64,000 bases of DNA from Dirofilaria immitis. Lineage: Eukaryota > Nematoda > Chromadorea > Rhabditida > Onchocercidae. The DNA lies in assembly GCA_024305405.1 (NCBI GenBank), contig JAKNDB010000064.1, positions 682,001-746,000 on the forward strand. The letters run 5' to 3'. The notes beneath the pieces were generated by a model. It saw nothing but the letters and a program-made list of their open reading frames with translations, was not told where the DNA came from and ran no database searches. Positions within the stretch are counted from its first letter, which is position 1. The number at the start of each line of letters is the position of its first letter. This document shows, piece by piece, positions 24,227-60,752 of the stretch. Made by a program: the position numbers and the translations under genes.

Positions 24227-27200
24227 TCAGATCAAAAAAATAAACCGATAAGGACGGGAGAAAAGATGTTCACGGGTAAACTGCCCCGATCCACTAGCTG
24301 CACTGTTGGATTCAAGAAGGATATCGAAACGTGAAACCAAAAATGCCATCTGTGCCTCCAAGATGCTATTTGGATCATCAAATGTTACATAGGCCGCAAA
24401 TTCCGCATTCAAAACTCGTTCCACTTGCTAAATTTAAGTACCATACTGATTTTTATTGTTGCAAAAAGAAATCCAAATAAATGTGAACGAGTAATGCTCA
24501 ATAAAAACTTAACATAAATATTCGCAAGAAACTTTCCATTTAAAGAAGAAGTTAGAAAAAATTCAGGAAGTGTTTAGGAAGAGTAAGATCACTACTTCAG
24601 CATCTCATTTTCCAGAAAATTCAAGAATCGTATAGAGATAAACGAAAATAAATGGACTTCCTGAAGAAAACGTCTAAAAGGTGCTAAGTAATAAAACTTA
24701 ATAAATTGAAAGGAGCAAAAATGCTTACAATAAGATCATTGTTGAATGATGAAGGAACTTCCGTGTCATCCAGCGTAAAACTCAGAATATAAATTGGTTT
24801 TATTTTCGGGTACTTGATATCAACCTGAAATTTGCTTCATTAATGATTGTCAGAAACTTACGAAAATACAGCAAGCTTGCTAAAACTATGTCTGACACAA
24901 CGATTCTAGTTATTATATATACTAAAATGTTTATAATAACCAGAAAAAGACCAAATCATATAAGTTAAGCAAATCTTGAAGCAATTTTTGCGTATTTTGA
25001 GAAGCTATTTAACGCTAGTCAAAATCGATCAAAACCGCTACTTGTTTTAATTCTATCGAGTATTTAAAGAATGCTCATTAATCATACATATATTAAAGCA
25101 TGAAGTTTGGCTCCGGGATCTCTTTCAACTGTTGCAGAAAAGTAAAATTGCTTGTCAATATTTGTTTTTCGTTCAAATTCTATCAGATTTCGATACTCTT
25201 CCGTTAAGGCTTCATATTCCTAAAATAAACATACCAAAATGTGAACAAAAATCTGAACTAAATGGTAAGTAATATTTTTTTCTGGCGCTCAGGAATTTGT
25301 ATATTATTGAAATTGGATCATATTTAATGAGCCTTCACAAATCGAACGGGATATTCAACAAGCATTTACAAGAAACATTAAGATTTCATTAAGTAACATT
25401 AATAATACAAATATTCTTCAGTTTATCTAACGATAATTTGGAGATAGGACGAAATAACTGCTTAACTGATATGGGAAAGAAGTAGCACAGATTATAAAAT
25501 TTGTTTAGAAAATTTCATAATAAAATCTACTCTATCAAATTTAAAAAATTCCATAGAACCAACTAACAAAGAACTGATCAGCTGTAATCATTCGAAAACT
25601 AGTGAGTTTTGCACAGACGTTATCCGGGAAATCATTTCGGTTCTTTAAATCATCAAATACTTTCAACGCATCTGAAATGTTGCTTATAAATCTATAACAG
25701 AATGCTACTTAATTGTGAATTAGAAAATTATAGCTTCAGATATTTAAATTTAAATATGAAAAATAGAAATTATCCATGTTTTTTAAAATCTTTTGTAGAC
25801 TTCTACCATAATTATACAAATTAATCAAGTGATGATAGCGAATGCGATTCGCCATCAAATTCCATCTTAAGAAATGCAGCAATTTGCATTTATGGAATTT
25901 CGTAACTTAATGTTCGGATGTAAATTTTGGGAAAAATATATTATTGATTCACATTTCAAAATTTTTTATGAGCATAGAGAGAAACTAAAACAAAAAGGGT
26001 TGACCTTATAGACATTTCATGTTTAACACTGTTATAAAAAAACATACGTAGTGAATGAGTGATTCGAGCCAGAACGCATCTTGAACGTATACGTGACCTG
26101 ATCTTTCCAACAACGGAATGTATAATTTCACATAATTGAGAATTTTTCGCTGGAACTTCATCATTTATACCAGCCATTTTTTGAGCAAATGCATAGAATC
26201 GACCAATTTTAGGTTCCAGATCAGTTACAGAAATCCTGTAAAAAACTGTGAATTACAAAATATTGAAATAAAGTAGAAATTTCTGTGACACTGAAAATTG
26301 ATTCCAATAATTAGTTTAGTCTATAACAATCTATTAAGAGTTTAGATGCTTTTAAATATAGGAGCAAGCGTGAGATTCGCCAGAGTATCGATAGAACAGA
26401 AATATAATATTAAAATAATGTTCATTTAAAGGCATACTTTAATTGGTCTAGTTTGGCTTGTCCTGCACTATTAACACATTTACTTCCATCGTCGCCATCA
26501 AATAATTCGGCAAGAAGGAAACATCAAATAATGTATTTCTGTAAAAGGTCAAAAAAGAATCAATCTTCTAACCAAATACTCTTGGAATTTTTTCCTTTTA
26601 CAAACCTTTAATCTAAACAAATCTCAAAATTATGAATTAAACAAGAATTTTTAAGAGGAAAATACCCATATATTAATGTAGGTACTTGATTTAGCTTTGC
26701 CATTACTCCAACTGAACGTAAACCCGGAATGAATTGTAACACAAGGGTTACACACATATCGTCTGAAAAGCATTTAGACTTCCAGTTTACTCTAGAATTA
26801 GCCATATTCTTCGGATACTACTCAATTAGTTCTAGACAATTCAATTTTGTCGTTATGCAACGGAATAAAACCATAATTTACTTAACTTTGATCTAAGAAT
26901 TCATAAATTTTGAATTAGATTCAGCGAATTAAAACATTTGCATAAAGCCATTTTTGGATTTAAAATAAGATAATTTGTAAATCAAATTATTTAAATAACC
27001 TTGACAAGCGATTTCCATTTCAATATGAATCGGATGAGGAGCAACAATGGCATCCTGTCGTTCAGCAATTAATTCTTTCATGGACATATGTCTTCTTTTA
27101 TCATGACGTGTCGACTGTGACTGTTTTTCATTCAACTACAATCATTTAAAAATCAGAAAGAACGTTTTCTCTAGGATACAGAAAGTAATGAAATTGGTCG

Positions 27201-29663
27201 TTAAAAAGGAGTACTGGAAATATAATCAATTGCTTGAATCCCAAGCAATAATTTCAGGGTGGTTAAATTTCGGTAGAACAAAGATATCGTAAACATTAAG
27301 GATAGCTCAATAATTCAGTGCAATACTTTTTTGGGAACAAACTGAATATCGGATGTGGCGAAGTATCAATTTTTCGAGAAATGCTTGCGATACTGCTAGT
27401 AATACAACTAATCATTCAAGTGAAAATGAAAGTAGGATAGCCAAATCCTTGCTACAATTTATAGAAATAATGATATGAAGACCTAAATATTCAGTTTTTT
27501 CCGAGAATTATCTACTTTCATATGTCATACCAAAATAAGTTAATTAAACTGACAAGAATGAAGGCCATTCTTCGTTCGAAAAATATTTAAGTTTTTATAT
27601 AAGACGGAAAAATCAATACGCTTCATATATCCAAAAAAAAATTAAAGTAATTCACATCATCCTGGCTTTCCTCATCATCGACATCTTCAATGACTTCGAA
27701 CGTACGCTGTCGATTTTCTAGAAACTTCACGGCACTTTCGTAATCACCCTTGCATTTTAATATTATTCCTGCTTCTAGAAAAATGCATATTTAAATGGTA
27801 CCTATAATACTTTTCCAAAGATGGTAGTAATGGTTTGCAATCTATCTACTTATATTTCCTAGAAATTCAAAAGTGCAAATGCATATATAAAATTAATTTT
27901 TATTATAATTCGGAATGATAACTAAAGAACCTTTAACAATATCACAATAGGCCTCAACCTGTATAGCTATTACAGATAGCTCTTGAGGTAGCAGAGATAA
28001 TACACGTTCCTTCTCAACATCGATAGGACTAGATGTCAAACCCATCAACTCTTGCACTGGTCTTGCTGCCTAAATCACGAGAAAATAAAGTATATTTCAG
28101 AATAAAAGAAAAAAAACACCTTTTAATGAAGATTATAGAAAATTGAGAAAGTGGTTTCAGAATAAAAGCTTTCAGGTGAATAAAATATTGCAAGAGAGAG
28201 CAATGATAAAAAAACTATCACGACAAAAGCAATCCGTTAAAATACAAAATGTGGAAAAACCTCAATTACGGCTTCGATACGTGGTTTTAACGATTTTAGT
28301 CGATGTTCTTTCGTTGTAATATCAGTAATAAGTACGTTTTTCCGTCCTTCTCGTTCTTGCAAAGTTCCGACCAAACTACAAAAATGGAAAATGTTGTTAT
28401 TTAAGTCGATGTTCGATTGTGTCTCTAAAAAGATTTTTTCCAATCTTTGCTTTTCCTCACCTACCCCTCATTTCAAAAATCGAAAAAGCAAAATTTCATG
28501 AATAAATTCGCAAGTTAATCAAAAGAACTAGTTTATCCATCCAACTTAAAGGATTATACAAAAATATCATCATAATGAGATATTCGAGTAGTGCCAAGAA
28601 TAAAACAACCCCATATTTTCTCGATCCTCACTTTTCTTTATCTATCTCTCATTTTCTAAAAATAACAGAGAACTTAACAATAGCATTCCAAAATTTTTAT
28701 AGCTGAATATTACTTCTTGCGCTCTTCCATCTCCCAATTTAGCCGAGCTAGATGTTGCCGATGCTGATCCTTACGAGTGATTTCCTCTTGAGAAATACTT
28801 GCCGGTGCATTTGCATAGAATTCTTCTAATGATACCATTTCAATATCTTCATCAGCTGATCTAAAATTTCGAGAGGAAAATTTCTGCTCCTTTCTAGAAT
28901 TCTCATGTATCAAATATTTTTTTAATGACAAAGAGGCACACCTAAAATCATAACATCGATCGATTTCTTTCTGCAAATGCTCAATTTCACTCCTAATATT
29001 TTGCAGTTGCAGAAACCGTTCTTCGACAACAGTACGCTCTCGATTTACTTGGTCTCGAATTTGCCGATTTCGGTATTGGGCCAAACGATTTAATCTTCGC
29101 AAAGATAAGAACAGTGAAAGCAATGATTCTTCAAAATTTGATACTTCTAGTGGCTGAAATATCCATTACATTTTTGTGAAAAAAATCTGGAATTCGAAAG
29201 GATTAATATGGTAAAATAAAAATAAAAATTAGATATGGATTACCTTAACTGCATCACAACATGACTCAAGAAGTTTTTGTTTGAGCATTTGCGAATATTC
29301 GAGAAAAGACTCTTCAATTGATGCCATCGTCATTGATAACGCTTCACGATCCTCCCGTTCATAAAATTCCTTAAAAATTAATGATCTCGTTGAGGTTACT
29401 TGAACTTCAATACTATCATCAACAGCATCAATATTCGGAACTCACTTTCACTCGTTAACTTAATCGCATTCATAAAAGGATGCATCTAAAGAATCTTTCT
29501 TTTCTTAAAATTCACAAATTACATTCTCAAAAACTAAATCATTGAAAAGAATTGAAGTAAATGAAATATATTACTGAAACAGTTTTGCAATGTGCTCTTC
29601 AGCCTGCTTTTTCTTCTCTGGAGACTGTAAACTACCAGTTAGCCGAGCGCGTTTTGCTGACAT
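24227..29663 (-). CDS. thoc-5: THO complex subunit 5 (THOC5), 15 exons
   Basis: THOC5 is a coiled-coil subunit of the nuclear THO/TREX complex that couples transcription to mRNA export. Exons (5' to 3'): 29663-29575, 29440-29244, 29153-28942, 28860-28714, 28375-28261, 28069-27931, 27774-27656, 27135-27000, 26762-26666, 26538-26439, 26235-26048, 25671-25568, 25219-25088, 24824-24729, 24427-24227. The sum is close to 690 codons; human THOC5 has 683. Recognised blocks: RRLNRLAQYRNRQIRDQ, LQLQNIRSEIEHLQKEI and VSLEEFYANAPASISQEEI in exons 3-4 (N-terminal coiled coil), an acidic stretch in exon 7, and a conserved C-terminal half. The start lies one base after TTTTTAG, a likely SL trans-splice site. 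Two problems: exon 10 needs one extra base near 26509-26511 to join FDVSFL to AELFDGDDG, and the exon 1/exon 2 phases do not match, so that junction is unresolved. All other junctions keep phase. It is the last of four same-strand genes. Confidence 0.9.
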
Positions 29664-31418: not shown

Positions 31419-34400
31419 TTATAATCCATCGAATACTTGTACGCGACTCTTCGTTGCTCCAGCGCTGCTCTGAAAAATCCAAGGCTACTAAATTTTATAA
31501 ATACAAAATCCAGCTGACAAAAGCACAATATCTCACAAAAATATAAGATGTGCACAAAACAAAATTCTGGATATAATTATAACATGCATTTATTAAACAA
31601 TCTATTTTGTAATTATCCACTATTTTAAAACTGAATTCGAAGCTACTTAAAATACCGAAATGATTAATGATATTAGACTATACTTTTCACTATTTTGCTG
31701 CAATATGGTTCACTTTCATCCTATAGTAGTAATGAGATAGGACATTCACAGAGGTGCTATCTTCAACACAATGAAGTTAACATTTAGAAATACAAACATC
31801 TTAACTAAGTTATGGAGTGAACACTCATTTTAGTAATTTTTTATTTTAAGCACAGCAAAAACACACTTGGATTTGCTTGAAATCACCTTATTAACATGAT
31901 ATATATGTGGTTCAGCGACTGACTGCAACATTAAGGATGTAATTTTATTAAATACTGCGATATCAATAAACTAATAGCTTAAAGCGGAAAGATATGACAG
32001 TGAATTTCGGACACATTGAATGATCGTTTTCCATAATGATCGGATATTTAATACAATAGCTGTTTTCACTGTATTCAAACAATCCAGAATTTTTCATCTG
32101 ATAAAGCTTTCTAAGAATGAATGCTATGTTTTATTTTTTGATGCAAAAAAATACCTTTCTAAGTGTGGAATATTTATCAATACCCATTTGTAGGTTGGTT
32201 GCATGGATTCGATCGTGTTCTGACTGGCGATCCACAACTTTCAAGCTTTCGATTTCATTTCGAAATTCGGTCATTTTTCTTGAAGGCTTTTTTTTCTCAT
32301 TATAATCAGCTCTGAAAATAATTGAGAACCTTAAAACAATAAATTAATAAAAATACGCAAATATTCACTTATTTTCTTCGAATTTTGCATCAGAAAATAA
32401 TTTTTAGAATTTCCATTTGAAAGAACCTTGATTTTTCAATTTCTGTCCGTAAAGACAACAGATCGTTTGGCATCATCTGATTACTGGATGGATCGGGTGG
32501 TGGACAATTCAGTAATGCTTGTTTTTATAAACAATGGTGGCTGTGCTTTAATTATCGGTGCTACAGTAGCTGTAAAGTTCGGATCATCATCCAAATATTG
32601 CACATAACCGCAATCACCACTACTTGATGATGAGACCAAACGATGATGACTAATATATCGCTGGGGAACAGGCAAAGCATATGTTGACAACCAATCCTGA
32701 AAATTGTTGTGTAAATGCTCATAATAATTTAAAAATTTTTTTGCTTGAACAGTGAACTTATGTTACAGCAAAACATATAAATTTAATATAAAACATCGTT
32801 GATCAATATGAAAACATTCAGCGATAAATACGATCTAACACTTCCATATATCCAAGAACGCTACTTTATAAGAATAACGAAATGAGAGATAACCTAGTTG
32901 ATAAAAGATCGATTACAAACTCGACAATAAGTTCATGAACCGCCCTTGAAAAACCTCCAAAACCATGTAAAAATTTGTGACAAATTTTTAAAATCATCTT
33001 TAATATTCAAACCTGCGGCCAACTCGGTTCCGAGTCATATAAATGTGCACGACATAAGTATGGGTCATAACCATGACGCTCTGATTCATGCATCAAACGG
33101 TGAGCCCAAAGTTCAGCATCACGTGCTTTCCGCTCCAAAGACATTTTTGTCTCTTCCGCCTAAAAAAAATCTTTTAGTTTCAGTAGAACGTACTTTTTAT
33201 ACAGGAAGTGACCGTGAATTTATAATAAAAATTAGCTTTTGTAGTTCTACCGACAATGTTCTTGAATCATTCGATGAAATGAAACGCAACTGTAACTGTA
33301 GAGCAAGATTATATGGAATGTGCAGAGAATCAAGTTAACCATAAGTGACAATTTTTAATTTCTCATTCATATGATTTTTGACCTTATTAAACTAGATTTG
33401 TGCTCAGTGATAAAAATTTTATTTATTTAACATATCTGTCAAAAATTGATAAAATTGTGACTTAAATCAATAAACATTTCCGCAAACTATCATGATTATC
33501 TTTCTTTCTCCGCAACAAAAGCATAAATTAATTCAAAAAATAATTTAATTGATCCGATTAAATTAATTTTACCACTTCTAGTTCATACTCATCTTATTCC
33601 TCCTAATTAACATTTGCCAGACTCGGGATTTTGAAAAAACATGAATTTGAAGGTTTCACCTTGATCTGCGAAAGTTTCATGCGCTGACATTCTGCTTCAG
33701 CTTCGCTGGCTCTCTTTGACAGCACGAGAGCTTCCTCTTCTGATACTCTCGCTTTTTCTGCCATCAAATGCGCATTTTCTTCTGTTTTTTCATAGCTTCC
33801 TAAACAATAAGCCCTTTTTTAGTGTATTACATCGTGTCCACTTGGTGACAATGATAAATGAACAATAAACAAATCTCAACATTATTATTCAATTATAATA
33901 TTGTCCAAGAAATCATAGATATGGAATAAGCTAATATTTCAATCTAGACATTGCCTAATAACTATGCAAAAAATATAAAAGTAAGAACTTCTTTAAAGCG
34001 CAGGAAAAAAATACGAAAAAAATGCGCATAAAAAGTAGGAGTAATTTAACATCAAACAAAAATTTGTGTACAAAATATATATATATATATTTTTGGTACC
34101 TTCATATTACGTAGTTGCTCATTAATCGCAGCTATTTCATTTTTATATCGATCTCGTTCTGTTTCGGCCTGTATACGTTGCTCTCGCTCACGAGATAAAC
34201 GATTTTGTTCTTGCTAGAAAAGCAAATTCATATAAAAATGAATATAAAAACAGAAATGGAGAACAAAATTACTCAAGTACTGAAAAAAATGGCATACTAT
34301 AAGTAAAAAAATAATCATACTCTCAAAATCATAAAAATTAGAAGAACAGTGATAGTTGAAATTTTTCTTCGATAACACTTCGAATTTTCTATTAGAAAAA

Positions 34401-37400
34401 ACAAACAATTCGTCTAATTCTCTGCTCTTTCGCTTGAGCTTTCATTTGCTGCACTTCAAGCAAATCTGGCTGACGTCTTCTTAGGTATAAATTGTGGGTA
34501 CCAACGCACAAATCCAATATGCTCATATTGATGGAGATATCTTTTGCGCGAAATGTTATGGTACTCTTGTCCATTGTTCTCATATTAAACTGAAATAACG
34601 AAATACTTCTTACTGCAAAAATTCTAGCCAAAATTTGTAGAAAATCAATAGAAAATAATTCTTTACAAATCTCATGTTTTAATTTGGCTATTTCCACCCA
34701 AATCTTTCTAATCATATTCATTTTAGGAATACCAACATTATCTATATATCCTGCGCACTATATGCTTAATGATATAACTGAAAATCGACACTGTAAAACA
34801 TTACATTCTCAAATAAAAATGAACAAATTAATATAAAAATTTTGCAAAACTGTGAGTTTTTGAGGAATCGTAAATCAGACTTACAACTTTGTTCTTGAAT
34901 GAAATGTTTTTAATTTCGCTCCACGAAAAAAATGGCCGCGGTGTAATTCGATTAGTCTCTTTGTAAATTCCAATTCCTTGTGCTGATACACCAAGCGTTA
35001 GATCTGTTTCTTTATTATTCTATAATATCGTTGATTATTGCAAAATCAATTATGAAAATCATACAGGTGACTAATTTGAATATCCCTTTAAAAATAAAAA
35101 GCAATTATTCAGTTGAAATCGCCATTATAAAAAATTTGTTACAGAAAATCATCAATAAGTAAGAAAAAATGATAACGGTAATAACAGACAATAATATGTT
35201 TTCTCAGTCAAATCGAATTCAGGGAAACCATGTAAAAGATGAAATATTGGATGCCTTAAAAACTAACACATATAGGGTAGTACTGAATTCCATACATTTC
35301 CAAATCCTGTGCAACCCGTAGGTATTCCATTTCTGCATCTTCTCTATAATGCTACTTTTAATTAGTTTTTTAAAATCATATCAAAAGAACTGTCCATGAG
35401 CTATATCATTCTGAAAATAAAAATACATTCCAAACCAATGAATCTTTCTCACCGAATTTCTGGCAATTAAAAAATTATAACTGTCAAATTACCTGCTTTG
35501 TCCACTATTGTTTATCCACCACCGTTTGATGCGTTCTTCCCACATCTGCGGAGTCATATCGTACTGTTTGATTACACATTCCGGCAATAATTCACTTAAT
35601 TGTAACTTCGAACTTTCCACGCAGTCACCTTGCTAAATAATTATGCTTCTTCAATTTGCAGCTTTGTAAACTTATTAAAAACGAAGAGCAGCAATTCTGC
35701 TAATGAGTTACCTAGTAAGTGCAAAGCATATATACAAAAAAATCTCTAAACTGGCAGTTTCTGCCGAGTGTAATATAAACTCACAATTGCCTGTACAGCA
35801 TAAGATGCAAGAAGAACAGATGCTTCAGCGGAGCAGTACAGCTGCATACTTAAAATACTTTGCTTAATCTGAAGGAAGAAAAGATGACGAGTTATATCTT
35901 GTATCAATTCCTCTTCAACATCCTCTGGATAAAATTTCACAAGAAATATGAGATGTATTGAATTATCGTCCTGCTTCGGCACTTCCTGCTTACTTATCTA
36001 AAATTTAAGTAAACAGTTACTAAAGCTAATAGGCATTGAAGAAATTAGATAGTTCACAGTATGAGAAAACATAGCCATATCTGCAATAAAAAAATTAAGA
36101 GTCAATATATTACCTAATTTAATAACTAATTAAAGAATATACTAAAGATCAAAGTACGGAAGCATCCTCGAATTTGTTCGAAATGAATTACTTATTATAT
36201 CATGTGATATATTGCACATCCACTTAATTCATTAAAGATATCACAACTAATTTAAAAGACACAAAATTTTTGATCATATTTAGTTGTAAAAATATACGTA
36301 TATAGCAAGAATAAATAAAATATTAGTAATTTTATCACCTTATTGCACCTAACAAACCTTTTTATCCATTTGTAACCAGCACGGAATTCCTTTTTATTCA
36401 CAAATTGTAAACCAAAAACCAAATCTCTCTTAGACCGATTATCCTGCAAACTGTATCAAACAGCTGTCGTCCTGTACAATCCGGCTGCAATATTTTACAG
36501 GAAAATTAAAAGTGACATAAAATTTAGAAATGAAATGATTTATAATTTACAAATAGAAATCGAAATTAAAAAACCATAATAATAATAGCACATGAATAGA
36601 TATGTTACATGACTTAAATCCTAGCTTTTTCGTTTAATACGCTTATCTTAGTAAAATTTATTCCTCACAAGATTTTAATATTTACTATAACAAACAAATT
36701 CAAGAATCAAAAGAAAATTGAATAGAAAACAAACTCTTCTGAATCGAACCTATTTCGGCAAAAAACTACATGCACTCACTTATGTACATATAGCATACAT
36801 TACCCATGCGACTTATTCTAACATATTTTTGCTACTCTCATATACAACAAAATTTTTTTATTATGAGGAATTAGGCAAGAAACCAAAAGATTCACTATTT
36901 GTATTTTTAAAATGCAAAAAAAATGTGATTTAAGATGCTCATGTAAAAGGCAATGCTTGTAATTACACAAAATCTATTTATTTCATAATTTTTAAGTAGA
37001 AAAAATATGTATTTTTATTGTTTAGATATAAAATAATAATTTGATTTTGATACTTTAGATATACAGCCATCAAACTAATTTGAATATGACTGAAAATTAT
37101 GAACAGAAAAACAATTAAAATAAGAATTTTGAAAAGACAAACACTTAATAATTCAATTAGTTATGACCTCGGAAGTGATTAAACTATTTTATTCATGAAA
37201 GACCAGGTCGATAATCTGGTGAATTAATAAATTGGTATTCACTAATAAAACGTATCAGCATTATGCTCTCTTTAATAATAATCTAGGAATAGCGTAATTC
37301 TGTAGCTTAATTTACAATTCAGCATATTTGGCCAAAAACTTAATAATTTAATAATCTAGCAAAATTTATCAATTCAATGGTGCCATAATCTGATAATATA

Positions 37401-37676
37401 TTAATCCCACAATAGTAATCTCTGATATAAGAATTTAATATTTATTTGGTTCAGTAACATACTTATTCAATAACAAATTATTCGGTTATTCAATAGCAAA
37501 TTATTCAGTAAAATTATTCAAGCAATCAAATATATCAGCAACGTAATTATATGTGTAAGATTATGGTAATTAAATAAAAAAACAAACCTCCACAGTAATT
37601 TTTCTAGATCGGCATCCATAGTGCTTACTTTGACATACAAATATTTGCCACTACCTCCAGATGAAAAGAATCCCAT
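31419..37676 (-). CDS. nfm-1: Merlin / NF2 homologue (FERM protein), 13 exons
   Basis: Merlin links membrane receptors and cortical actin to Hippo signalling. Exons: 37676-37588, 36484-36358, 35997-35785, 35632-35493, 35343-35268, 35019-34885, 34589-34407, 34213-34100, 33799-33660, 33159-33013, 32696-32427, 32311-32155, 31469-31419; about 614 codons against 595 in human. FERM lobes are clear: [10 protein letters not shown] (F1), [19 protein letters not shown] and [13 protein letters not shown] (F2), [18 protein letters not shown], then [16 protein letters not shown] and [16 protein letters not shown] (F3 end). A helical rod follows (exons 8-9). The end, [10 protein letters not shown], matches merlin KSRVxxFxxL, not the ERM actin-binding tail, so this is merlin and not ERM-1. 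Start: ATGGGATTC at 37676; an in-frame ATG at 37721 is possible. The frame needs one more base in A/T runs at 37599-37603, 36414-36418, 36359-36363 and 33785-33790, and is off by one (opposite sign, or two bases) at 32522-32526. Confidence 0.92.
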
Positions 37677-39299: not shown

Positions 39300-42200
39300 T
39301 CATATGATTTCAGCATCTTTCAATAAGGCCATTAATTTTGGCTCCAATAAATTGTCGACTACTGTCTGCTCTAGTTCAGCAAGTTGTCTTTCTATATCAA
39401 TTAAGTCTCTGAAATTATCTTTCAGAATAAAAGAAATATTTCTTTCAGTAAAATTTTTGAAAGGACTACTTAACAATTAATTTTATCAGTAAGATGAAAA
39501 AAAAATGGCTTTTCAATAAAGAAGTCATTAGTAGTATGTCGAATGAATACGCCATAATACCTTCTATATTTATAATTTTAGATTTAAATATTTGTTCTTC
39601 TTATTGCATTTTTAACTTTATTATCTTATAACTCGAAGAAAAAATAAAAATACTTTTTCGTTTTGCCTGGTAGTGATTTCAATTCGATATAGTATTTGAT
39701 TTTTGGTTCAGTTCCACTTGCTCGTATCGTTGCCCAACTACCGTCTGATAATGTGAATGTAATCATTTCGGATGAAGTACTCAATGGTAAAATCTGTAAT
39801 TAGAAAAAGTTTCAAATCAGATTTTTCTTTTCCTATCATAACAAATTATCTTGGCACTTAAGAATTTAAACTCAACTTATTCCAAAAAAAAATATGCTTA
39901 TATGGAAAGTCCGGATCCAATCATTATATATTCCAAATCAGTTAGCCAGAAACAACGATATGTTATCTCTGTTTCTAACGAACTGCTAAATAAAATTATT
40001 TTTCGTGAGAATCTCAACTGCAAATATGCAACATCAATTAAACTTGATGATAGCTGTTCATTTCAATAAAGCTGAAGCTTCAATCTTCAGTAGGCTATAG
40101 TAATGAAATGAAAAATTTGAAAATTAAGAATAGTTTTGAATAGGACTATCGTAATTCCTCAGTTTGTTCAGACTATTCCTTTCTCTCTACTTGTATATTT
40201 TATTAAATATAAAAATCGTTTTTCTTTCGTCTGAAATTTATTATTTAGCGTTTTCTTTGATTTATCTTCATAAGTTTTGCTCTTCAACTCTAGTCAAAAG
40301 ACTCGTCCAATATACGTTCTCATATGGTCATATAATTATTCTGTTCTATTTCTCATTTTTTCAAATAATAAATCTTTACTTCTTATAACGGATAATATTA
40401 ATATAACAATGGTGAAAAACTATAAGTTATTCGATAAAAAAAAAGGAATGAAATAATACGTTTAAATGTAGTCTGATAATATGAATATCAGAAATATATA
40501 GATGATGTTAAATGAGAAATAACAAATGAAACTAACTGGTTTATTTCCAGGTTGCTCATTATCATATCCAATTGTCAGGTCGCGTACATATTTAATATCA
40601 AATTTTCCGATTTTTGCGGGTACTGAAATTTCAAATCATGCATTTAGTTCTATCCTTTTCATGAGGTAAAATATCGTTCAATGTAAGGCAGTTGCTGATA
40701 ATAAACAAGTCCCAAACAATTCTGATAACAGGTTTCTTAAAAGAAACTTTGTCATATTGTTTCATCTCATTCATCTGTTGGCTTAGTTGATAAAAAATAT
40801 ATAATCCAGATTGCAATCCATCTCGTAGTCTGTTCAAAATTATTTCTTTTCCAGTTACAAGTATAAACTGTATTTTTATAAAATAATGTTTTAAAAATAA
40901 ACAGTACTTTCTTATCTTTACGAAGTTTTCCAAAAATATTTCTCATTACTGTTTGATTGGGTACAAACCAATACGAACTTCTAATTAGATGGAAACCATA
41001 TCTATAATAAAATTACGACATAAGCAAGAAAATAAACAGAAAAAAAGTTCACACGTTAATTGAAATGCTTTATTTCAGAAAAAATTATTGAATTTTATGA
41101 CAGGCAATCTAGGACCTTTGCTGATATTTACAATAGTCTAACTCTTTCTCTCAAAAGATATCAATTTTTACTTTAATTGGATTCTTAAAAGAGATTCAAA
41201 ATTATTCCAAATCTACTTGTTATAAATGTTGAGAAGCTGTTGAGCAAGAGTTAATTCCTTGGAATATAGGTAAGATGTTAATTCGGCGAATGTTGCCGCC
41301 GCAGTAATACCATCTTTGTCAAGAGCACTCCCAGCATAAAACCAATCGACTCTTCCCATGCGAATAATACAGTTTTTCCCATACGGCGAAGTTCATCAAC
41401 TTTATTTGCTAGCCATTTGAATCCGGTTAAACCTAACTCATTTTGAAACCTGAAATTAATTGAGACTTCGTTTTCTACTTTTTATCAAGCTATCGATTAT
41501 CGTATTGCATACATTATTTGAAATTGCTTGATCACATTTCATATTTGATTATTGTATGGCTGTGCATTTCAAATACGTAAGATATTTTCTTCTTTCATCA
41601 ACTGCGATAAATAAGATACATTATGAAAAAAGAACAGTCAGTTGTCTATATTTTCTAGGATATGCATAGTAACTCTGAAAGAAATTCGAATCGGAACTTG
41701 TTTTAATTTGAATCTAGAACTTAGTTTGTTAAATAGGTGAAATTCTCAATAATAGCTTTTCTCGAATAGATATTGCCTCTCAGCGAAAAGAATTGATTTC
41801 TACAGTATATCTATAATTACCTTCCATGGTAGCAATAGTACGACTTATTGATGATGAAACAGCACTATTAATAATATATAAATTTGAAGGATCCTTTTGC
41901 GGATTTTGCTCTCGCCAGCAATGCCAAATCCACCATGATATTAGGGCGCCCATTTCATTTCCCGTGAAAATTTTCCAATCACCTCTGAAATTTAACAATA
42001 ACAAAATAAGGAAATGAAATTGATCTATATGTTCCATTGATAATTATAGTACTACCAATGTAAAGATGTCCAGTCAATTGTAATACTTGTCAAAATCTTG
42101 TTAGAATTCAGTTATCTGTTATGACAAATATGTCTTAATAAGATCTATGATTTAAGCCATTAAATAATCCCTGCCTGATTTATCAAAAATCGAACTATTT

Positions 42201-45200: not shown

Positions 45201-46028
45201 AAATCGATTTATTATATTTATTGCTAAAGAAATTACTTTATTTTATTTCTCGATTATTTTATAATTCAGTTTTCACTACTTGAGGATTGAAGAAGTATTG
45301 ATAAGACAAAAATGAAATTGAAGAAATTAGAATTATTCAAGCTTCGATTATTAAGCTTAAATTATTTTTGTCATAGCACTGAAACTGATTAAAATAAAGT
45401 AGAATTAAATTAATACTTTAAAATATATTATTCCTATTAAAAATTAATTTTAAATAGGAAATTTATTTTATACAAAAAATTAAATCAAATTATATATATA
45501 TAATACCAGCTGTGCCAAACGACATTTTGCCACACATTCTTGATTTTAATGCTTCAATATCTTTTTGTTCCATAATTCTTCAATTTCTGCATGAGTCCGT
45601 TTGTTCTATAAAAAGCATTTGATTGACCTTTAACATTTGAGTACTAACTATTACGCTTCATTTTGAACTTATTGATCTAATTTATTTGAACTTATTGATC
45701 TAATTTATATTCTTGTTCATCCAAAATTCTTCATTCTTAGTTTCGTTATGGTAGTGTGATCAATAAATAGAAAACAATTCATATGATTTTTAGATTTTAA
45801 GTTAAAATAAAAAAAAATGAAATTATTATATATTTCAGCAATATTAAAATAAATTCATTTCTATCTTATCTATATTATCAATAAAACAAATAAAGATATG
45901 CTATATTCTATAGCAAGAAAATATAAAACTCAAAATAGAATATAATGAGAAATTAAAATGAAAAATAAATAAATTCATACATTATCCCATTTTAACCAAT
46001 TTGCAGTAAGCGTTCCGTAATCATCCAT
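39300..46028 (-). CDS. PGM2: Phosphoglucomutase-2 / phosphopentomutase (PGM2), 14 exons
   Basis: An alpha-D-phosphohexomutase of the PGM2 type, interconverting pentose-1/5 or hexose-1/6 phosphates in the cytosol. Exons: 46028-45981, 45605-45507, 44943-44791, 44420-44336, 44150-44043, 43656-43490, 42728-42605, 42531-42362, 41984-41821, 41449-41217, 41001-40908, 40622-40537, 39793-39654, 39408-39300; about 594 codons, human PGM2 has 612. Key sites: FGTAG at the exon 2/3 join, catalytic-serine loop [13 protein letters not shown] (exon 5), metal loop DPDADR (exon 8), TGFKWLANK and WEESIGF (exon 10), phosphate-binding [12 protein letters not shown] (exon 13). All active-site elements are kept. The start follows an AAG acceptor-like site by one base. 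Frame requires one extra base at 45574-45577, 44854-44858, 41446-41448, 41338-41341 and 40611-40615. These breaks look like sequence errors, since splice sites and motifs on both sides are intact. Confidence 0.93.
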
Positions 46029-46437
46029 TCTTATCGATAAAATTATCAATCAATTTCTAAATATTAAATTATTTGAAAATTTATCAACGAAAAAAAAAAC
46101 AACAATAAATCATTATCAACAAATTGATCAAAAAATACATACACTAGAGAGTAGATATTCTTATAACTATCATTTTTATTTATTCAATAATTGAAAAAGT
46201 TATGCTATATTATGAAGTTATCATTAATCAACTTTTCCAAGCTTAATTACTAAGCCTAAATATTTTTTCAAATTCTTCATTAAAGAATACTTTACATGTA
46301 TCGAATATGCTATCTAACCATAAATATTAAAATAGTTAGAATCTATCCAAATAAATATGTATTTATTTTTAGGTTTTTTTGTTTTTCAAATAACAAATAT
46401 TAACAAGAATAAAAAGAAAAAAAATTGAAGAAGAAGA
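46029..46437. other. Spacer between PGM2 start and DHFR-like fragment
   Basis: About 400 bases of AT-rich sequence with A runs near 46090 and 46420. It should carry the PGM2 promoter. No motif can be named. Confidence 0.5.
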
Positions 46438-47752: not shown

Positions 47753-49990
47753 TCAATAATATACAAGATTCTCTTTAGTAAGTGAACTTAATGATGTCGT
47801 AACTTTCGGGTCATCATCAGATGGTTTATAATCTTCCGTTGATTTAATCGTTGCAACAAGACTCCATTTCTTCAACAAATTTTCTAAAAATAGTTTTAAC
47901 TTATTATATGAATGGAACCTACTTTTCCCTGAATTATTTTAATTTAATTAGGGTGCATAAAGAATTTTGATAAAAAATATAAATGAAATCATTCTGCTTG
48001 CCTTTCCACAGTCGTATGTACCCATCTGAACTTCCAGTTGTTAAGATTGTTCCAGTTATGTTCCAAGACAATCGCCAAATCTACAAAGTTTCTAGTTCTA
48101 ATTATCGAAAAAATATCTACAGTATAATCACAAAATGAAAAGGATTTATAACGGCTGGTACAATTACTTGATTCAGATTTTTGCTCTTCTTTCCTCCCTG
48201 CTTTTACTGAATCGACGAATAATCCTACATTCAGTTGTATAAACAAAAGGATTGTAAGGTTAACTATCAGACTATCTTTCCTTATTTTTAGCTAATTAGA
48301 GCATCAGGGAAATAAATTTCTTTTTTTTTTCATTTCCAATATAATGCTGTGATGCACTGGAACATTTCCGAGAAATCAAAAATAATAATAGAGAACCTGA
48401 ACAGGTGAATAAGACGGATTCTCAAGAGCTTCCAACTGCGTAATCTCATACTCAGTTGGTCCACCTCGCTCAATCAAATCAACATTAAAACCAGTGGTTT
48501 TCCCGGTTTCACTCAACTTGAAGATGCAAATGTCTTTGGAGCCAACAGCAAGCAAATGATATGATCGTCCAGCAGGTGGTGCAAAAGCAATATCCGTCAC
48601 TGGTTCAGTTACTTTCAAGGATGGAGTATTCAACAATTGCCATTTTCTAGAAAATGTATCCAATCAACAACATTCTAAAAACCGAGAAATGAGCATTTTA
48701 TCTGAGATATGAATTTTACTAATTTTAAATTAAAAAATTATAACGGTTGACGATATGATATAATGTAGCTCTAATAATTAGTTGAAAAATTTTGAAGACC
48801 GAAGATTATCGTGATATTCATATACAACTACTCGTTTTCCAGTTGTATGTGCATCATCGGATCCTACAGCAATAAGTGGTTTTGTAAGGCGATGTGTACT
48901 CCAAGAAAGGCAACTACAGCGATATCGAAAAGCAGCTATATCTTGATTTAGACTCCACATTGATAAGTTCATAATATCTGGAGCTTCGTATACTCGTAAT
49001 ATTCCCTGAGAAGATACAGTCGCCTATAAATAAACTTATTAAACAATGCATTTCACTAAAGCGAAAAATAATCATACATCCTGTTTATTATATGTCAATA
49101 TTCCGCTTTTATATTCATTACACTTTTAAAAAAGGCAAGTAAAATCAAATGCATAATGTTGCTTACAAGCATCAATCCAAGATGCCTCGGAGAAAATTTA
49201 ATGTCAGTAACATTATGACGACTATCAACAAGTTGACAACATCGTTTCCAACGTGCTTGTTGTTTCTGGTCACTGTGAATACTATTTTTCGCTACTGTCT
49301 CAACTGATTGACGTACTGCAATGTATTGCTTAATTTTCAATTTTCAAACAACTAATTCAAATGCATAAAATATATTTCAAAAATTCTGTTTCGCTTGAAC
49401 TTTTGAACTGATTCGAGAATAAATTAGCTTCACTGATAAACACTGTAGATTTTATTGAACCAATTAATAATAAATTCTAGAAAGTATTATGACGACTATC
49501 ATAATGATGCAGCAAACCGGTTTCTTCCCAAATTGTTACACTTCGATCAAACGAACATGTAGCCAAGATTTGTCCAAATTCAGGATGAGCCCAGATTACT
49601 TTCCAAACCGGTCCACCATGACTCTGCAATAGCACATAGTAAAAAACATTTATGATTTGCATTAATAGGACAACTAAAATACGATCCATATAACTGGATA
49701 CAAAGCATTTTGTATCTATCGTTATTCTAATTAAATAGTGACCAAAATCATTGATGCGGGAATTAATCCTCGATAAAATTTTAAATCTGAACCAATCAAT
49801 TAAACACCTTCCACGACGCAGATTTAATCCAGCTACCATTTGATGACAAATTCCACACACACACCATCATATCACTGGATGACGTAGCAATCCGTCGTCC
49901 GTGAAAATCGAATGCAACGTGATGAATAAGATCACGTTGTTGATCATTGAATATTATTGATGTTGAGAACTGCTCCGATGATGATGTCAT
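47753..49990 (-). CDS. npp-18: Nucleoporin SEH1 (WD40 protein), 7 exons
   Basis: SEH1 is a WD40 beta-propeller in the Nup107-160 (Y) complex of the nuclear pore and in the GATOR2 complex of TORC1 control. Exons: 49990-49808, 49623-49518, 49315-49167, 49023-48800, 48646-48397, 48080-48002, 47883-47753; about 371 residues, human SEH1L has 360. Recognised blocks: [15 protein letters not shown] and [12 protein letters not shown] (blade 1), [18 protein letters not shown] with [11 protein letters not shown] (blade 2), [42 protein letters not shown], and [20 protein letters not shown] with YIRLW. Phases agree at every junction, and this is the only conserved gene here without a frame break. Intron 6 appears to use a GC donor (AAAG then GCAAGC at 48001-47996), since no GT fits and the phase of exon 7 requires it. 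It is divergent from the small membrane-protein gene at 50.9 kb. Confidence 0.94.
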
Positions 49991-50915: not shown

Positions 50916-51704
50916 ATGGATATTTTTGATACAAAAATTACACTCGTTGGTATTGTTCTATCTATATCTATTGCTTATTTCATTCTTGTTATCGCTATTT
51001 TTTCATTTGCATTCGTCTTCAGGTTGATCCATTTTTTTTCGCAATCTCGAAAATATTCTCTTAAGAGAATTATGATGAAATATTAGATAAATGCATTTGC
51101 AAATTTATTAAGAATTTAAAAATTCAAATTAAGACTTGATAAATTCAAGTTCAAATTTAAGAATTGAAACTAATTTTTTGCATATCTTTATATTTCAGCC
51201 AAACAGATTCATTCAACCTTATACGATACGCAAATTCGAAAACGGCGAATCTCAACCAATAATATCATCTTCTTATATGGATTGTTCTGGTATCGCGAAA
51301 TGTTGTCCATGTCCAGTTTTCAGTTTCCGACAATTCTTGAAATCTTGTTGCTGTGATTCGGTAAGCTGAGATTTTTTATTTTCTACAAAATAAGAGATCG
51401 AGAACATTTTTTTGAAACGAAAGAAAACTTTTATTCAACCTTATTCAACCTTCTTCCTTCCTTTCCCATCACCTTTCTTTCTTTCTTCTGATTTTCGGAA
51501 ACTTTTACTTTAAATAGAAGATTTCTTAATCTCATTTCCATTTCATGTTAAAGCACAGAGCAAATGTTAACATTGTATCAACGTAGCATATTGCAGGAGA
51601 AATTGCGACATAGCGTGAACTGCGAATGCATACGACCAGCTGTACATGGCTCACAAAATTCTGGTTTAAACTTTGTCTGCTGTCAAGTTAATGATCGTAA
51701 TTAA
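50916..51704 (+). CDS. Small Cys-rich single-pass membrane protein, 3 exons, unknown
   Basis: Three exons join in one frame: 50916-51022, 51199-51360, 51597-51704, about 125 residues to a TAA stop. Exon 1 encodes a short start then a hydrophobic stretch (TLVGIVLSISIAYFILVIAI, about residues 8-30), a signal-anchor or transmembrane helix. Exon 2 carries the cysteine cluster CSGIAKCCPCP and, at its end, KSCCCDS. Exon 3 has NCECIRP and ends FVCCQVNDRN. Introns have TTTCAG and TTGCAG acceptors and GTTGAT and GTAAGC donors. Joining exon 1 to exon 2 in phase needs one extra T in the six-T run at 50998-51003. I do not know the family. Clustered cysteines next to a membrane helix could be palmitoylated or form disulphides. 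A PLAC8-like resemblance was considered but the pattern does not fit. Call rests on open frame, matched phases and signal-anchor shape, without homology. Confidence 0.5.
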
Positions 51705-52033: not shown

Positions 52034-52035
<2 letters not shown>

Positions 52036-52078
<43 letters not shown>

Positions 52079-52110
52079 TATTGTGTATCTCATTTCTGTA
52101 AAAATGAGTT

Positions 52111-52144
<34 letters not shown>

Positions 52145-52175
52145 TATTGTGTATCTCATTTCTGTAAAAATGAGT
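52036..52175. repeat. TA microsatellite and 38-bp spacer, duplicated
   Basis: A (TA)n run at about 52036-52076, a spacer reading GAGTATTGTGTATCTCATTT plus CTGTAAAAATGAGTTTG, a second TA run at about 52113-52141, then the same spacer again. The second spacer merges into the left end of the dispersed repeat at 52158. Confidence 0.9.
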
Positions 52176-52956
52176 TTGTTTTTCAATCGAAAACAGATTA
52201 TATATTGCCAAATTTACTTTTGCAGAAAACGATCAAATCATGTATTTTAAACTAAACTGTGTTTTAAGTAGAATTTGAAAACAAATTCATTCCAAATAGT
52301 ACTGCATTGATTTTCAAGAGATAACTTTGTGAACGAACAAACTGTTATACATTTATACAGCACACCTGTATGAGTTTGTGGATATTTGCTAATTTTCAGC
52401 AATATAAGACGGAAATTTACAATGAATTGGATTAGTAATGTTTAAGATATCCTTGCCATTAAATTTAAGGTAAAAAGATCTGCTATAATCGGTGTATATG
52501 GCTGTTGCTAAAACAGCGATTCAAAAAAATGATTAGGCGGATAATAGCCACCTTTGGTCGTAAAATATCCAAACCCCACTTTTCCAACTATTACCAATAG
52601 AAACAGCCGATCGAACAGACACGACAATTAGGCCAATCATCCATGAAGATAAAACAAACAAATCAGACAGGTAATAGGGAATGAAGAATCACTTCGCTTT
52701 GTGCTGTTAAATCTTAGTATAATAGCGATGCTAACATTAGACAGGTTACTAATCAGTTATGATCAGAGAGATAAAAACAAGATATAATTGGCATGCATTT
52801 ATTTTAATGAACACTGGTTACTTTCTCACATTTATCTGTGCAATTGAAATTTGTTCAGTCCGTCTTTACCGAAAATTTTATTTTTATGCCGAACATGAAA
52901 AAAAAGATTAGTTAACATCTGAATTTCTTGCTCTTCGTCCAAGTCAATCATTATGG
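52158..52956 (+). repeat. Dispersed repeat copy R1 (~800 bp)
   Basis: Collinear with 63145-63928 (R4) in the same orientation. The left and middle parts differ at roughly one base in ten; the last ~250 bases (from GGTTACTAATCAGTTATGAT to GTCCAAGTCAATCATTATG) are almost identical. No clear open frame, so probably a non-autonomous mobile element or a segmental duplicate. Element ends and target-site duplications could not be defined. Confidence 0.85.
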
Positions 52957-55114: not shown

Positions 55115-55560
55115 ACATTAAAAGTGCATGCCAATAATATATATGTTCATCTTATCTTTGTGATCATTAATAATTAATAATCTGTCTAATGTTGGCATCG
55201 CTATTATACTTAAAAGCATCAAAATATAACTTAAAAATTGTACTATATACTTGTCCGGTTTGTTCGTCTTAATGAATGATTGGTCTTATTGTTACGTCTG
55301 TTTGTTCGAATGTTTCTATTGGTAACAGGTAAACTTTGCGTACATCGAGAGGCTATTATACGTCTCGTCATTTTTTTGAAATTCTCGCTCTAAGAGCGGT
55401 AATATACATCAACAAACGCTCATTTATTTTTAAATTCTTTCTAAAATTTCTATTATTATAGAGATGAGATGAGGAAGAAATAAATAATATCATTCTTTCT
55501 TATTGTGCAGTGAATTTCAGATAATTATTTACAATAACTTATGGCTAATCCAAGATTTTT
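55115..55560 (-). repeat. Dispersed repeat copy R3, inverted
   Basis: Same orientation as R2 and sharing AATCTGTCTAATGTTGGCAT, GTTTCTATTGGTAACAGGTA and GAGCGGTAATATACATC with it, with an internal deletion of about 20 bases. It ends against the Srx exon relic at about 55556. Confidence 0.75.
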
Positions 55561-55640: not shown

Positions 55641-55659
55641 CATCGTAACAGAGTAATAC

Positions 55660-55750: not shown

Positions 55751-55757
55751 TGTTTTC

Positions 55758-58107
55758 ATGTGGGAAGTATTCAGTGACGGAGATGAACCTTACGAAGGTC
55801 TTACGCATATGGAAGTACGACAACGGGTAAGTTACGAATAATGAGAATTATCAGAATTTTTATAAAGAAAAACAGATGCATATCTCTAAAATCTTTATTT
55901 ATGGCATTACGGTATAACATTACGGTAAAGTAGCATACGGTAGGAAAGTGTAATATTGGTAAATATCAGTTACAATTAAATGTTATATTAAATATTGTTT
56001 TATATCTGTTTATCGATGAAATAAAAATGCTTTTACGATGAGTAAAAGCTTGAAAAAATTGTAAATTAGTTATTAGTAAAATTGTAGGTAGGCTGTGGTG
56101 CCCGATTAGATCGACCCGTACATTGTCCAAAAATATGTTTTCCTTATGCAGAAATGTTGGGATCAGAATCCAGATGAGCGTTATGATATGAAACAAGTAT
56201 GTTATATCAATAGACTAATAAATTACCAATTTGATATTGAAATTATCAATTTTTTTTTTAATAAATTTATATTTTCGTGTATATTTAATTTAAGGTTGTG
56301 CGATTTTTCGAGGATCATTTTGAGAGTAAAATAAAACGAAAGAAACAGCAAATGTGGTCAGCAGAGAAGACCGAATTAACAGTGAAAGATGACAAGGATA
56401 TTATTGAGGAATATTTGAAAGAAAATGGAAAAATGATGATGCAACAGCTGCTGCAACAGATACGAATGCTGAAAAATTGATCAAAGAATTGCAAGATAAA
56501 ATTGCAAGATTGCGTGCAGTAAGTTATGATTCAAGTTCATCATCAACTGTAGACGAAAATCGATCAAATGCAAAAGGCAAAATGTGGGAAATAACAGATG
56601 ATTATAAAGAACGACCGAAACATCAAATAGGTAAGGCTGAAATAATGCAAGATTAATGATTTCTAATTTAAAATAAATGAAAAAGTATTAGGATGAAGAA
56701 TAAGAATTTTATTTCATTTGCATAAATAATGTAATAGCACATATTATTAATTCTCATTTTTTCTGATCAAAAAGTTGATTAATTTTATAAAAATGTAACA
56801 TAATCTGAAAAAATAAAGACGTCAAATTTTCCAATGAAATCAAAAAGCTATTCTATTCGTTTAGAATCTAAGAGTTAATTAATTTTTTTCATTTAGAAAA
56901 TCTAAAATTTAAGATGTCTTTAATTTTTCGGTATTTGAACGAAATTAAATTTTATTTATGAAACAACTCTTTTGATCGTTTGATATATCAATATGGGATA
57001 ATATATAAAAACTAATTAATAAACAAAATTATCTCTCTCATTAATGTCCTATAAACAAATGAATCCTTTTCTTAATAATTGCTTTTCAAGAATCGAAATC
57101 AAGAAGAATAGTTAGATCAAAGAAAACACTACCGACAAGAAATGGATTACAAGAATTTAGAAAATCTTCTATGGTAAAATTTTTATACTTTTAATATTAT
57201 GAATTCAGAAAAAAAAGTTGCCATTTTAAGAGTTCTTAATTTTTTTTCTAATTATTGATTTAATATGAAATTCAAGAATTTAGTCAAATTAATTGTACTA
57301 ATTTAAAATTTTATATTGAATTGTTGCATTTTTTTGACAGATTATAATTCGGGAAAATTTTACAGATCTCAAACAAACAATATTGTATTGAAGGATAAAT
57401 TTATTAATTGATATGTCAATCCTCATTGCAAGACAATGAGAATATAAAATTCAATTGCAGAAATGGAGTCAAAGTAAAAAGCCTAAGGAGAAATTAAAAC
57501 AATCATCAAAATATGAAGAAATTAACATTAAACCGAAAGAGTTAGTATTTGATGATTTCAATTTAATTTAAATCGTAATCGTAGATAAATTCAAAAGAAA
57601 ATTAATTGTATAGCTGCAAATTTCTATAGATACATTGATTCGATATTCCAGGATTTCATTGCTTTTTCTTATTGAAGACATAGAAGACAATCGTTATAGA
57701 TTCAAAATTCTTTCCCCAAAGAAGGAATTAAGAGAAGAAACAAATAAGAAAATATTTCGAATAATCGCATTTTTGGAATATCAAATTTTTCTGATCAAAT
57801 TAGTAAAATTAACTTAAGACATAAAAATGCAATAAATTAGAGATTAAAATCATTAAAAAATTAGTGTATGATTGAAACAAAAGGATATCGATAGAGAATG
57901 ACATGCAAGAATTAAAGATATAATACTTAAATCTTTTGAAAATTTAAATTTTTCAGAGATTGCATAAAAGGATATGGTTTGAAAAAAAAAAGGAAGGATA
58001 TTCTCGAACAAGATAAAAATTAATATAAAACTAATTAATTTCAGATTAGAAGCATTGGCAGAGGATATTAAACAATTGAAAAAGCAATTAGCTTTACATC
58101 GGAAATA
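55758..58107 (+). CDS. Protein tyrosine kinase, C-terminal part (subdomains IX-XI plus tail); 5' part not found
   Basis: Exons: first from about 55758 or a little upstream to 55826, then 56088-56196, 56295-56630, 57091-57173, 57461-57540, 58045-58107. Exon 1 reads MWEVFSDGDEPYEGLTHMEV, the subdomain IX-X signature of cytoplasmic tyrosine kinases. Exon 2 reads GARLDRPVHCP and then, after frame repair, QKCWDQNPDERYDM (subdomain XI). Exon 3 continues VVRFFEDHFE into a Lys/Glu-rich tail with a likely coiled coil; the last exons are basic (SKSRRIVRSKKT) and end LKKQLALHRK. Phases match from exon 1 to the stop. One extra base is needed at 56129-56133, near 56144 and at 56429-56433. ATP-binding, HRD and DFG exons were not found, so the gene is truncated, very diverged upstream, or a relic. 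Style recalls nematode Fer/SPE-8-like SH2 kinases, but no SH2 domain is seen. Confidence 0.65.
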
Positions 58108-58650: not shown

Positions 58651-60752
58651 TTAAATCGTAAAATAATGCCAATTGAAAGCCAATACAATAAATCTATAAA
58701 AATTGGCATTATTTTTTGATAGCCAAGCATTAAATTAATTTAAATTATGAAATAAAACGATAGTTTTTATTTAGCTAAATTAACAATAAAATGTTTCTTA
58801 CCCTTCCAGAGCATGCGTCATTTCCCAAAAAATTGTACATACTCCAAATACAACCCATTTATTACTTAAAAAGTAGTTACCAATAAAAAGATAATAGATG
58901 ATATGATCATCATAATAGCAGTAACACAAGACTGAAAATTTAGCAATGAATTAATTTCGAAAAAAAAAGCAATTTAATTAGAAAAATCAGATATTAAAGC
59001 ATTGAAATGTTAATCAAAAATTCTGATACTACAAAGATATTAATATATATACATATGATCTAATTGAATTTTAATAAAACAAAACTTCTTGATAATATCA
59101 TACGATATGAATTAATTATTTTGAACATTGGAATAGATATAATATTCAAAATAATAACACTTAATTATTAGCATTTTCATTTCTAACTTCTCCTTAATCA
59201 ACTTTTCATGCAAGAATTCTATTTATTCTTCTCTCTTCTGCTTTATTTATTGCTTTTACCTGTTTAAAAAAGAATAAATCTCGTTTACGTGTCATAAAAT
59301 TATTTGCCGTAATTGGAGTTATTTTTGGCTGAAAAAAAAATTTTAATTTAAACTTTAATATAAGTTTTAATAATATTTCAATTGAAAAGAAAATAACTTT
59401 TTATATGATAGGCAAAATTTGAAAATTTTCATTCATTTTTTTGAATATTTATGAAATGTTTTTGAGATGAAAGTATTTCTAATTTTAAAATCTGTCTTAT
59501 CTAATCATAAAGATCTATCATGTTGAGCTATCCCACGATCTAAGCAAATACTTTTATTATATATTCATTTGTTAAGCAAGAAACTGCTGTGAATCGTACT
59601 TTATGATGATTTCGTATTTTGATAAACGTTACTAAATTGATGCATCCCATTATCACTGAAGATGATAAAACTATTATCATATCAAAAATGGAGTTTATCA
59701 GTCCGCAAGTTGTATTACAGTAACTCCAACAATATGATTTCGCATTAAAAATGAGAGTACATGGTTCTGAAAATTTTTAATATAAATTGATGTGTTTTGA
59801 TTTTCCAAATTTTTTTTCTATAAACATAACGAATTATTCCAATCAATCGATATATTTCGTGAAATGGTTGTTTTTTTTTTTTTTTGGGACAATATTTTTA
59901 TTTAAATCATACCGACAATGCTCGGAAAACATGGTAGAAATCCAAGAAAATAAACTATAATTCCTGCTTTGCGTGCTTTCTGTACGGACCAAAAATATTG
60001 GTATTTTAGAGGATATGCAAATGCACAATATCTATTAATTGCAATTAACAAATTCAACAATACTGCTCCATAAAGAGACACATTTACCAAACATCCAGGT
60101 ATTAAAGCAACGAGAGATGTCGACGATAGTTCATTAGAATTTCTGAAATTATAATTAACTCAATACTAGTAGTAATGGAAACGATCAGAAATCAACAATT
60201 GAATACATGAAGTTAAATTCCGATTTCTACAAATTCTTTATGGATTAGTGGAACAAATTAAACATAATAGAAAATGTTACGTCATTAAAATGATAGCTCC
60301 CCAAATTAATATAATTGATATCGTTTGTATATTACAAAGTAAAACTGCGGTACAAAGTGTACCATAAGCATTCCGAAAATGCGAATATGTGGTTGTGATA
60401 TAAAGTGATAAGCTGTTACTGACAATGCCGATTGTTGATACCTGCAATAAAATTGACATTAAATGAAATACAATCTCGTAAGTTAATTCTGGTCAATTAT
60501 ATAAAGCGAAGTTATCGCTAATGATATGGTCCTATACAAAATCTCTCAAATTCTCGAAGGTAAGATAGTATGTTAATTTGTCATTCAACTGACAGATTAA
60601 TTAACAAACTAACAACTTCGAGAGAGTTTAAGTTTTTGTTTGAGTATTTGATAAGAAAACAAAGTTGATACGATGAAAATCGAACTTACTATAGTAATAC
60701 AAATCAATGCCAATGCATTTTCATTTAAGTTTGGCTCCGTAACTTTCATCAT
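58651..60752 (-). CDS. Srx-type serpentine chemoreceptor (7TM GPCR), 7 exons
   Basis: Exons: 60752-60690, 60441-60281, 60142-59913, 59766-59600, 59328-59260, 58931-58802, 58693-58651; about 287 residues, within reach of nematode Srx receptors (about 300). Seen: TM1 ending GIVSNSLSLYI, the FRNAYGTLC motif before TM2, the TM3 end AINRYCAFAYPLKYQ (an NRYCA/DRY-like element), TM4 with LPC, an extracellular loop with SYCWSYC, TM5 SSSVIMGCINLVTFIKI, a short third intracellular loop with TRKRDLFF, then TM6-TM7 with FGVCTIFWEMTHALEG and FIVLAFN. Phases agree at all junctions. Exon 6 needs one extra T in the run at 58868-58872. The C-terminal tail is only a few residues. Likely role: chemosensory or peptide receptor; ligand unknown. 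It is the only intact receptor among fragments of relatives (55.56 kb, perhaps 62.2 kb). Confidence 0.8.

Follow-up and report, generated by a model that had tools for sequence, protein, structure and literature searches.

In a 64,000-base window of the Dirofilaria immitis assembly GCA_024305405.1 (the whole stretch analysed, bases 682,001-746,000 of contig C6), the reading frames of the genes for THOC5, merlin and PGM2 are repeatedly broken by single-base losses, and protein-family scores point to similar breaks in a kinase gene and a G-protein-coupled receptor (GPCR) gene. We estimate a probability of about 97% that these frame breaks are residual nanopore errors, with A or T runs called short, and that the genes of the worm are intact. 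The breaks are present in the deposited sequence and very probably absent from the worm. Undercalling is a well-known kind of artefact, and the breaks can be accounted for without programmed frameshifting or RNA correction, both of which fit them badly. Homopolymer undercalling in a long-read assembly had been proposed in a preliminary description of the window, and the proposal is supported here by breaks on other contigs, by a deficit of long runs in non-coding DNA and by a published MinION assembly.

The losses would arise during sequencing and survive polishing. In an R9.4.1 pore, an A or T run longer than about five bases produces almost no change in current, and the basecaller would report it one, sometimes two, bases short. 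If the consensus were polished only with the same reads, the loss would persist; each loss in an exon would then shift the frame by one, and an automatic gene finder would invent introns or starts to bypass the breaks. The runs in the DNA itself would be longer than those in the assembly.

Breaks were located with a custom spliced protein-to-DNA aligner, which accepts GT-AG introns in any of the three phases and, at a penalty, allows 2, 4, 1 or 5 bases per residue. Several relatives were aligned to each gene, in runs with frameshifts either permitted or forbidden. The aligned features of the window are the following.

24010..29663, minus strand: THOC5, with minus-one breaks at 29583-29588, at 26509-26522 and at the exon junction 24246-24247 / 24074.
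31865..37676, minus strand: merlin (ERM family), with minus-one breaks at 37594-37604, 36414-36418, 36388-36395 and 33783-33790, and an extra shift at 32522-32528.
32270..32295, minus strand: a merlin stretch with two seemingly short A runs, where residues mismatch those of relatives.
39302..46040, minus strand: PGM2, with minus-one breaks at about 45559-45572 and at 44853-44860, 41440-41444, 41327-41334, 40609-40616 and 39334-39341.
48002..49936, minus strand: the SEH1 gene, an internal control whose frame is unbroken over the aligned part.

All three THOC5 breaks are shown by each of the five filarial references (P0241-P0245), and the score against P0241 is 2485 with frameshifts allowed and 2391 with frameshifts forbidden. 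Five references were aligned to merlin (P0001, P0003, P0004, P0005 and P0006). Four of them show all four minus-one breaks, and the fifth, P0006, shows the first and the last and skips the middle exon (score against P0001, 2504 with frameshifts and 2126 without). The first five PGM2 breaks appear with all three references (P0121, P0122 and P0124) and the one at 39334-39341 with two of the three, the third alignment ending short of it. Against P0121, PGM2 scores 2350 with frameshifts and 1937 without. This transcript-derived relative is identical at only 520 of 582 positions and is therefore not from D. immitis. SEH1, aligned to a PDB SEH1 sequence (138 identities in 279 positions), scores 558 either way, which bears out, for the aligned part, the earlier statement that this gene has no break.

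The preliminary description had listed 15 breaks. Alignment to relatives and Pfam comparisons support 13 of them, two of which had been misplaced and others set a few bases off. Its THOC5 site, 26509-26511, is real and forms the edge of the aligned interval 26509-26522; its merlin sites 37599-37603, 36414-36418 and 33785-33790 reappear as 37594-37604, 36414-36418 and 33783-33790, and its PGM2 sites 44854-44858 and 40611-40615 as 44853-44860 and 40609-40616. The PGM2 breaks set at 45574-45577 and 41446-41448 exist a few bases away, at about 45559-45572 and 41440-41444. A merlin break had been assigned to the A5 run at 36359-36363, which requires no change; the real one lies nearby, at 36388-36395. 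Similarly, the PGM2 break given as 41338-41341 is a true one whose best placements, 41327-41334, fall outside that run. Three further breaks had escaped that list: THOC5 29583-29588, the THOC5 exon junction 24246-24247 and PGM2 39334-39341. The claim that all breaks have the same sign holds throughout THOC5, merlin and PGM2, where 13 of 13 counted one-base events are minus-one.

Merlin 32522-32526 had been singled out as a shift that does not fit the rule of one missing base, and this claim can be softened. The relatives disagree on the interval 32522-32528, which P0001 reads as minus-two and P0003, P0005 and P0006 read as plus-one. Because P0001 is the closest of those references, we favour a loss of two bases from a single A run, to judge from the alignments. 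At 32270..32295, the window and the D. immitis merlin model P0002 read KKKP-SRKM, P0001 reads KKKSLKEKM and P0003 reads KKKSLQEKM; in our reading, two A runs would be short by three bases altogether, which would keep the frame and alter the residues. A minus-one event at 33160-33161 was rejected, as it is forced solely by extra residues of P0001 and is not needed by P0003, P0005, P0006 or P0002; the P0004 alignment stops ahead of it.

If undercalling is the cause, breaks are expected throughout the genome, whatever the gene or contig, and they were found on contigs C17, C65, C21 and C10, with SEH1 and the actin genes of contig C58 intact. The cytosolic HSP70 gene on C17 has three minus-one breaks and 547 of 635 identities to human HSC70. 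One minus-one break each was found in mitochondrial HSP70 (C65) and in BiP (C21), the latter also showing a doubtful plus-one event adjoining an intron (reference, human HSC70). Two of the three canonical actin genes, both on C58, are intact and served as internal controls (scores 1760/1760 and 1764/1764 with and without frameshifts, zero events). The third, on C10, has one minus-one break and 362 of 370 identities. At the site of this break the intact C58 genes read AGAGAAAAGATGACC, and the C10 gene has an A replacing that G, so that its A run extends into the next codon and the gene is broken there. It is the synonymous spelling, not the protein, that determines which actin gene is broken. 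Two genes whose references were divergent do not enter the counts, namely the HSP110-like gene of C10 (117/331 identities, with two minus-one events and one plus-one) and the actin-related gene of C26 (196/362, with one event of each sign). Nor does an HSP70-like fragment on C17 (112/260; zero events).

Undercalling should produce single-base losses and seldom gains. The counted genes yielded 19 minus-one events, one minus-two and one plus-one, besides a further minus-one row that was discarded as an artefact of its reference; the two divergent genes with events add up to three minus-one and two plus-one outside the count. The 19 sites (THOC5, 3; merlin, 4; PGM2, 6; HSP70, 3; mitochondrial HSP70, BiP and actin, 1 each) comprise 13 in the window and 6 elsewhere. 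Merlin 33160-33161, a second listing of the four merlin sites, the minus-two event and the plus-one event of BiP were dropped from this set. The sites are concentrated in homopolymers, as undercalling predicts: 13 of the 19 touch an A/T run of at least 4 (3.59 expected) and 10 touch a run of at least 5 (1.43 expected). When intervals of equal width were placed randomly on the aligned exons (about 14.3 kb), none of 2000 permutations reached the observed 13 or 10. In the three window genes, break intervals hold 7 of the 28 A/T runs read as 5 and 3 of the 52 read as 4. Of the five runs read as at least 6, one lies in a break, one in a stretch present only in P0001 and one at the KKKP-SRKM misfit of merlin, and two look right. 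From these tallies it follows that runs whose true length is at least 6 would mostly have been read short.

A cut-off in run length above about five bases should also be visible irrespective of coding, and it is. Counts of A/T runs of lengths 4, 5, 6 and 7 are 1149, 521, 126 and 75 in the window; 1087, 491, 124 and 74 in the window once the exons of its four aligned genes are removed; and 2537, 1039, 313 and 170 across other loci totalling 163,067 bases. Run lengths drawn from mixed geometric distributions should give ratios of successive counts that stay level or rise. In the window, however, the ratio is 0.453 for the step before, 0.242 from 5 to 6 and 0.595 for the step after; the 5-to-6 ratio is 0.25 in the non-coding part of the window and 0.301 in the other loci, where a second drop occurs from 7 to 8 (0.212). 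Six-base A/T runs thus reach only about 55-65% of the count predicted from neighbouring lengths in the same assembly, in non-coding DNA too. A deficit there is foreseen by neither ribosomal frameshifting nor transcript repair, since no reading frame has to be kept in non-coding DNA.

The assembly analysed is very probably the published MinION assembly of D. immitis, as far as the available extract of that paper allows us to infer (Gomes-de-Sa et al. 2022, PMC9179477). The extract describes one MinION R9.4.1 flow cell, basecalling with Guppy 2.3.5, assembly with Flye, Pilon correction by mapped raw reads and annotation with GeneMark-ES, and it puts the identity between the assembly's own 18S and a D. 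immitis record at just 98.91%. The species is the same, the gene models are of the same GeneMark kind, and the N50 given there, 3,687,191, is compatible with our contigs, the six longest of which total 42.96 Mb and the seventh of which has 3.60 Mb. A comparable case, also taken from an extract, is the Brugia malayi assembly of Fauver et al. 2019 (PMC6925183), made with one MinION flow cell, in which 553,752 indels were left after polishing in 90.3 Mb (about 6 per kb); its coding sequences were shorter, and its authors blamed homopolymer errors and inferred frame shifts. It shares its technology with the published D. immitis assembly, comes from a related worm and has errors that are mostly indels. 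According to the extracts, it differs in that Nanopolish was applied to signal data, with a comparison to a reference, whereas the D. immitis paper used Pilon with raw reads. The D. immitis paper cites the Brugia malayi study and uses its extraction procedure.

Several observations weigh against attributing all of the breaks to undercalled runs. Six of the 19 sites lack an A/T run of at least 4 (of these, two touch a G3, another two a three-base A/T run, and the last two no run above 2), and therefore runs do not account for every site. In the three window genes, 21 of the 28 A/T runs read as 5 are unbroken, and two longer runs look right. BiP has one called gain, beside an intron and against the human HSC70 reference, and three of four references read merlin 32522-32528 as a gain as well. 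The 65 contigs and 86,694,620 bases of the assembly analysed do not match the 110 contigs and 87,899,012 bases stated in the extract of PMC9179477; because the totals differ, we can only infer that the two assemblies are the same. Lastly, the evidence draws on a single D. immitis assembly, on sequences of relatives and on protein-family scores.

Alternatively, the bases could be truly absent from the genome, with polymerase slippage on the runs or insertion editing correcting the transcripts; ribosomes would then meet an intact frame. The common sign of the breaks and their preference for A/T runs match this explanation. However, the deficit of 6-base runs is equally strong in non-coding DNA, where no protein would benefit, and at least 6 of the 19 sites are clear of any A/T run of four or more bases. 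Slippage, moreover, is weak when a run has only 3-5 bases. The deposited proteins of relatives are full-length and have the same residues encoded without any sign of correction, and nothing was found in support of correction. We therefore consider RNA correction very improbable, and just as improbable its wider version, in which the heartworm genome truly lacks these bases across hundreds or thousands of genes and the transcripts gain length at short A/T runs, either ahead of translation or in its course.

Taken at face value, the sequence would instead contain true frameshift mutations, in genes that are decaying or in damaging alleles carried by this worm. The same one-sided damage would then be required in HSP70, actin, THOC5, merlin and PGM2, genes that outside the breaks retain high identity and splice sites (HSP70, 547/635; actin, 362/370; likewise THOC5 and merlin). 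Neutral decay gives losses, gains and stop substitutions, whereas 19 of the 20 one-base events here are losses, and we regard true mutation as hardly credible. Least likely of all is programmed minus-one ribosomal frameshifting that restores the frame at every site: the sign is right and the A/T runs look like slippery sequences, but just 2 of the 19 sites have an X XXY YYZ heptamer nearby in the upstream frame, the non-coding deficit is not predicted, and PGM2 would require six successive shifts, which would make the yield of its product minute.

The broken automatic gene models that had been predicted for this region exist, since the D. immitis GenBank proteins P0002 and P0123 either detour round the breaks or take the wrong frame there. 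P0123 (Phosphoglucomutase-2, 503 amino acids) agrees with the window at every one of its 495 aligned residues with zero frameshifts, its introns bypassing the breaks; it starts late, skips stretches or enters the wrong frame at the breaks, and has lost the C-terminus of the family. P0002 (Merlin, 576 amino acids) matches at 557 of 563 residues, also with zero frameshifts and with introns that bypass the breaks. One of its exons is invented, and the stretches at three other breaks are left out of the model. No D. immitis THOC5 protein is among the 18 matches listed at E values up to 1e-30, though the gene is present in the assembly; its gene model may be split.

If the breaks are artefacts, the proteins of this assembly carry about one frame break for each kb of exon, to go by 19 minus-one events over about 14.3 kb aligned, conserved chaperone and cytoskeleton genes included. 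Searches, drug-target work and annotation that use these models would inherit false introns, false ends and missing exons. According to an extract of the Dirofilaria asiatica genome paper (PMC12546972), D. immitis proteins of GCA_024305405.1 served there as gene-prediction evidence. If that record is the assembly analysed here, its errors may spread through such reuse.

The remaining breaks proposed for the window lie in three other genes.

50998..51003, plus strand: a claimed break in a membrane-protein-like gene, from the preliminary description.
56117..56200, plus strand: a kinase subdomain (PF07714) with two frame steps near 56129-56145.
56429..56433, plus strand: a claimed third break of the kinase gene, from the preliminary description, in a stretch of low conservation.
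58868..58872, minus strand: an Srx-type GPCR gene (PF10328) whose frame breaks in the last transmembrane part.

For the kinase gene, the breaks at 56129-56133 and 56144 are backed by the PF07714 score, which is 26.3 bits with two minus-one steps, 15.6 with the best single frame and 20.4 with one plus-one step. The GPCR break is likewise backed, the PF10328 score increasing from 59.1 to 78.5 bits once the C-terminal frame is added. No family match was obtained in the pieces tried of the kinase stretch at 56429-56433, and the two pieces tried of the membrane-protein-like gene gave no Pfam family.

Duplicated sequences were also compared for run length. A tubulin pair was too diverged (94%) for this purpose, and the tubulin loci otherwise served for run counts alone. 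Inverted histone-gene duplicates (C4:216541-218206 / C4:340208-341874 and C60:643307-643558 / 646915-647166) are about 99.6-99.7% alike, and their differences include non-coding run lengths. They contain eight distinct single-base gaps, six of which fall in runs of at least 4 in the longer copy. These gaps suit an artefact, to judge from the copies, but real copies diverge likewise. A COX1 search intended as a mitochondrial control returned only fragments, on large contigs and mostly with stops (C64:1211108-1211437, C26:1610144-1610332, C26:881535-881876 and C58:519462-520413); these could represent nuclear copies of mitochondrial or Wolbachia DNA.

An Rfam scan of the window gave zero matches. 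A dispersed repeat is present at 52179-52735 and 63165-63708, with two ungapped blocks that are 89-95% identical and a wider alignment at 91.6% over 795 columns; an open frame related to it was noticed by eye on the minus strand near 55118-55389. At about 52010-52200, two TA-rich microsatellites (IYIYIY translations) flank a repeated short unit.

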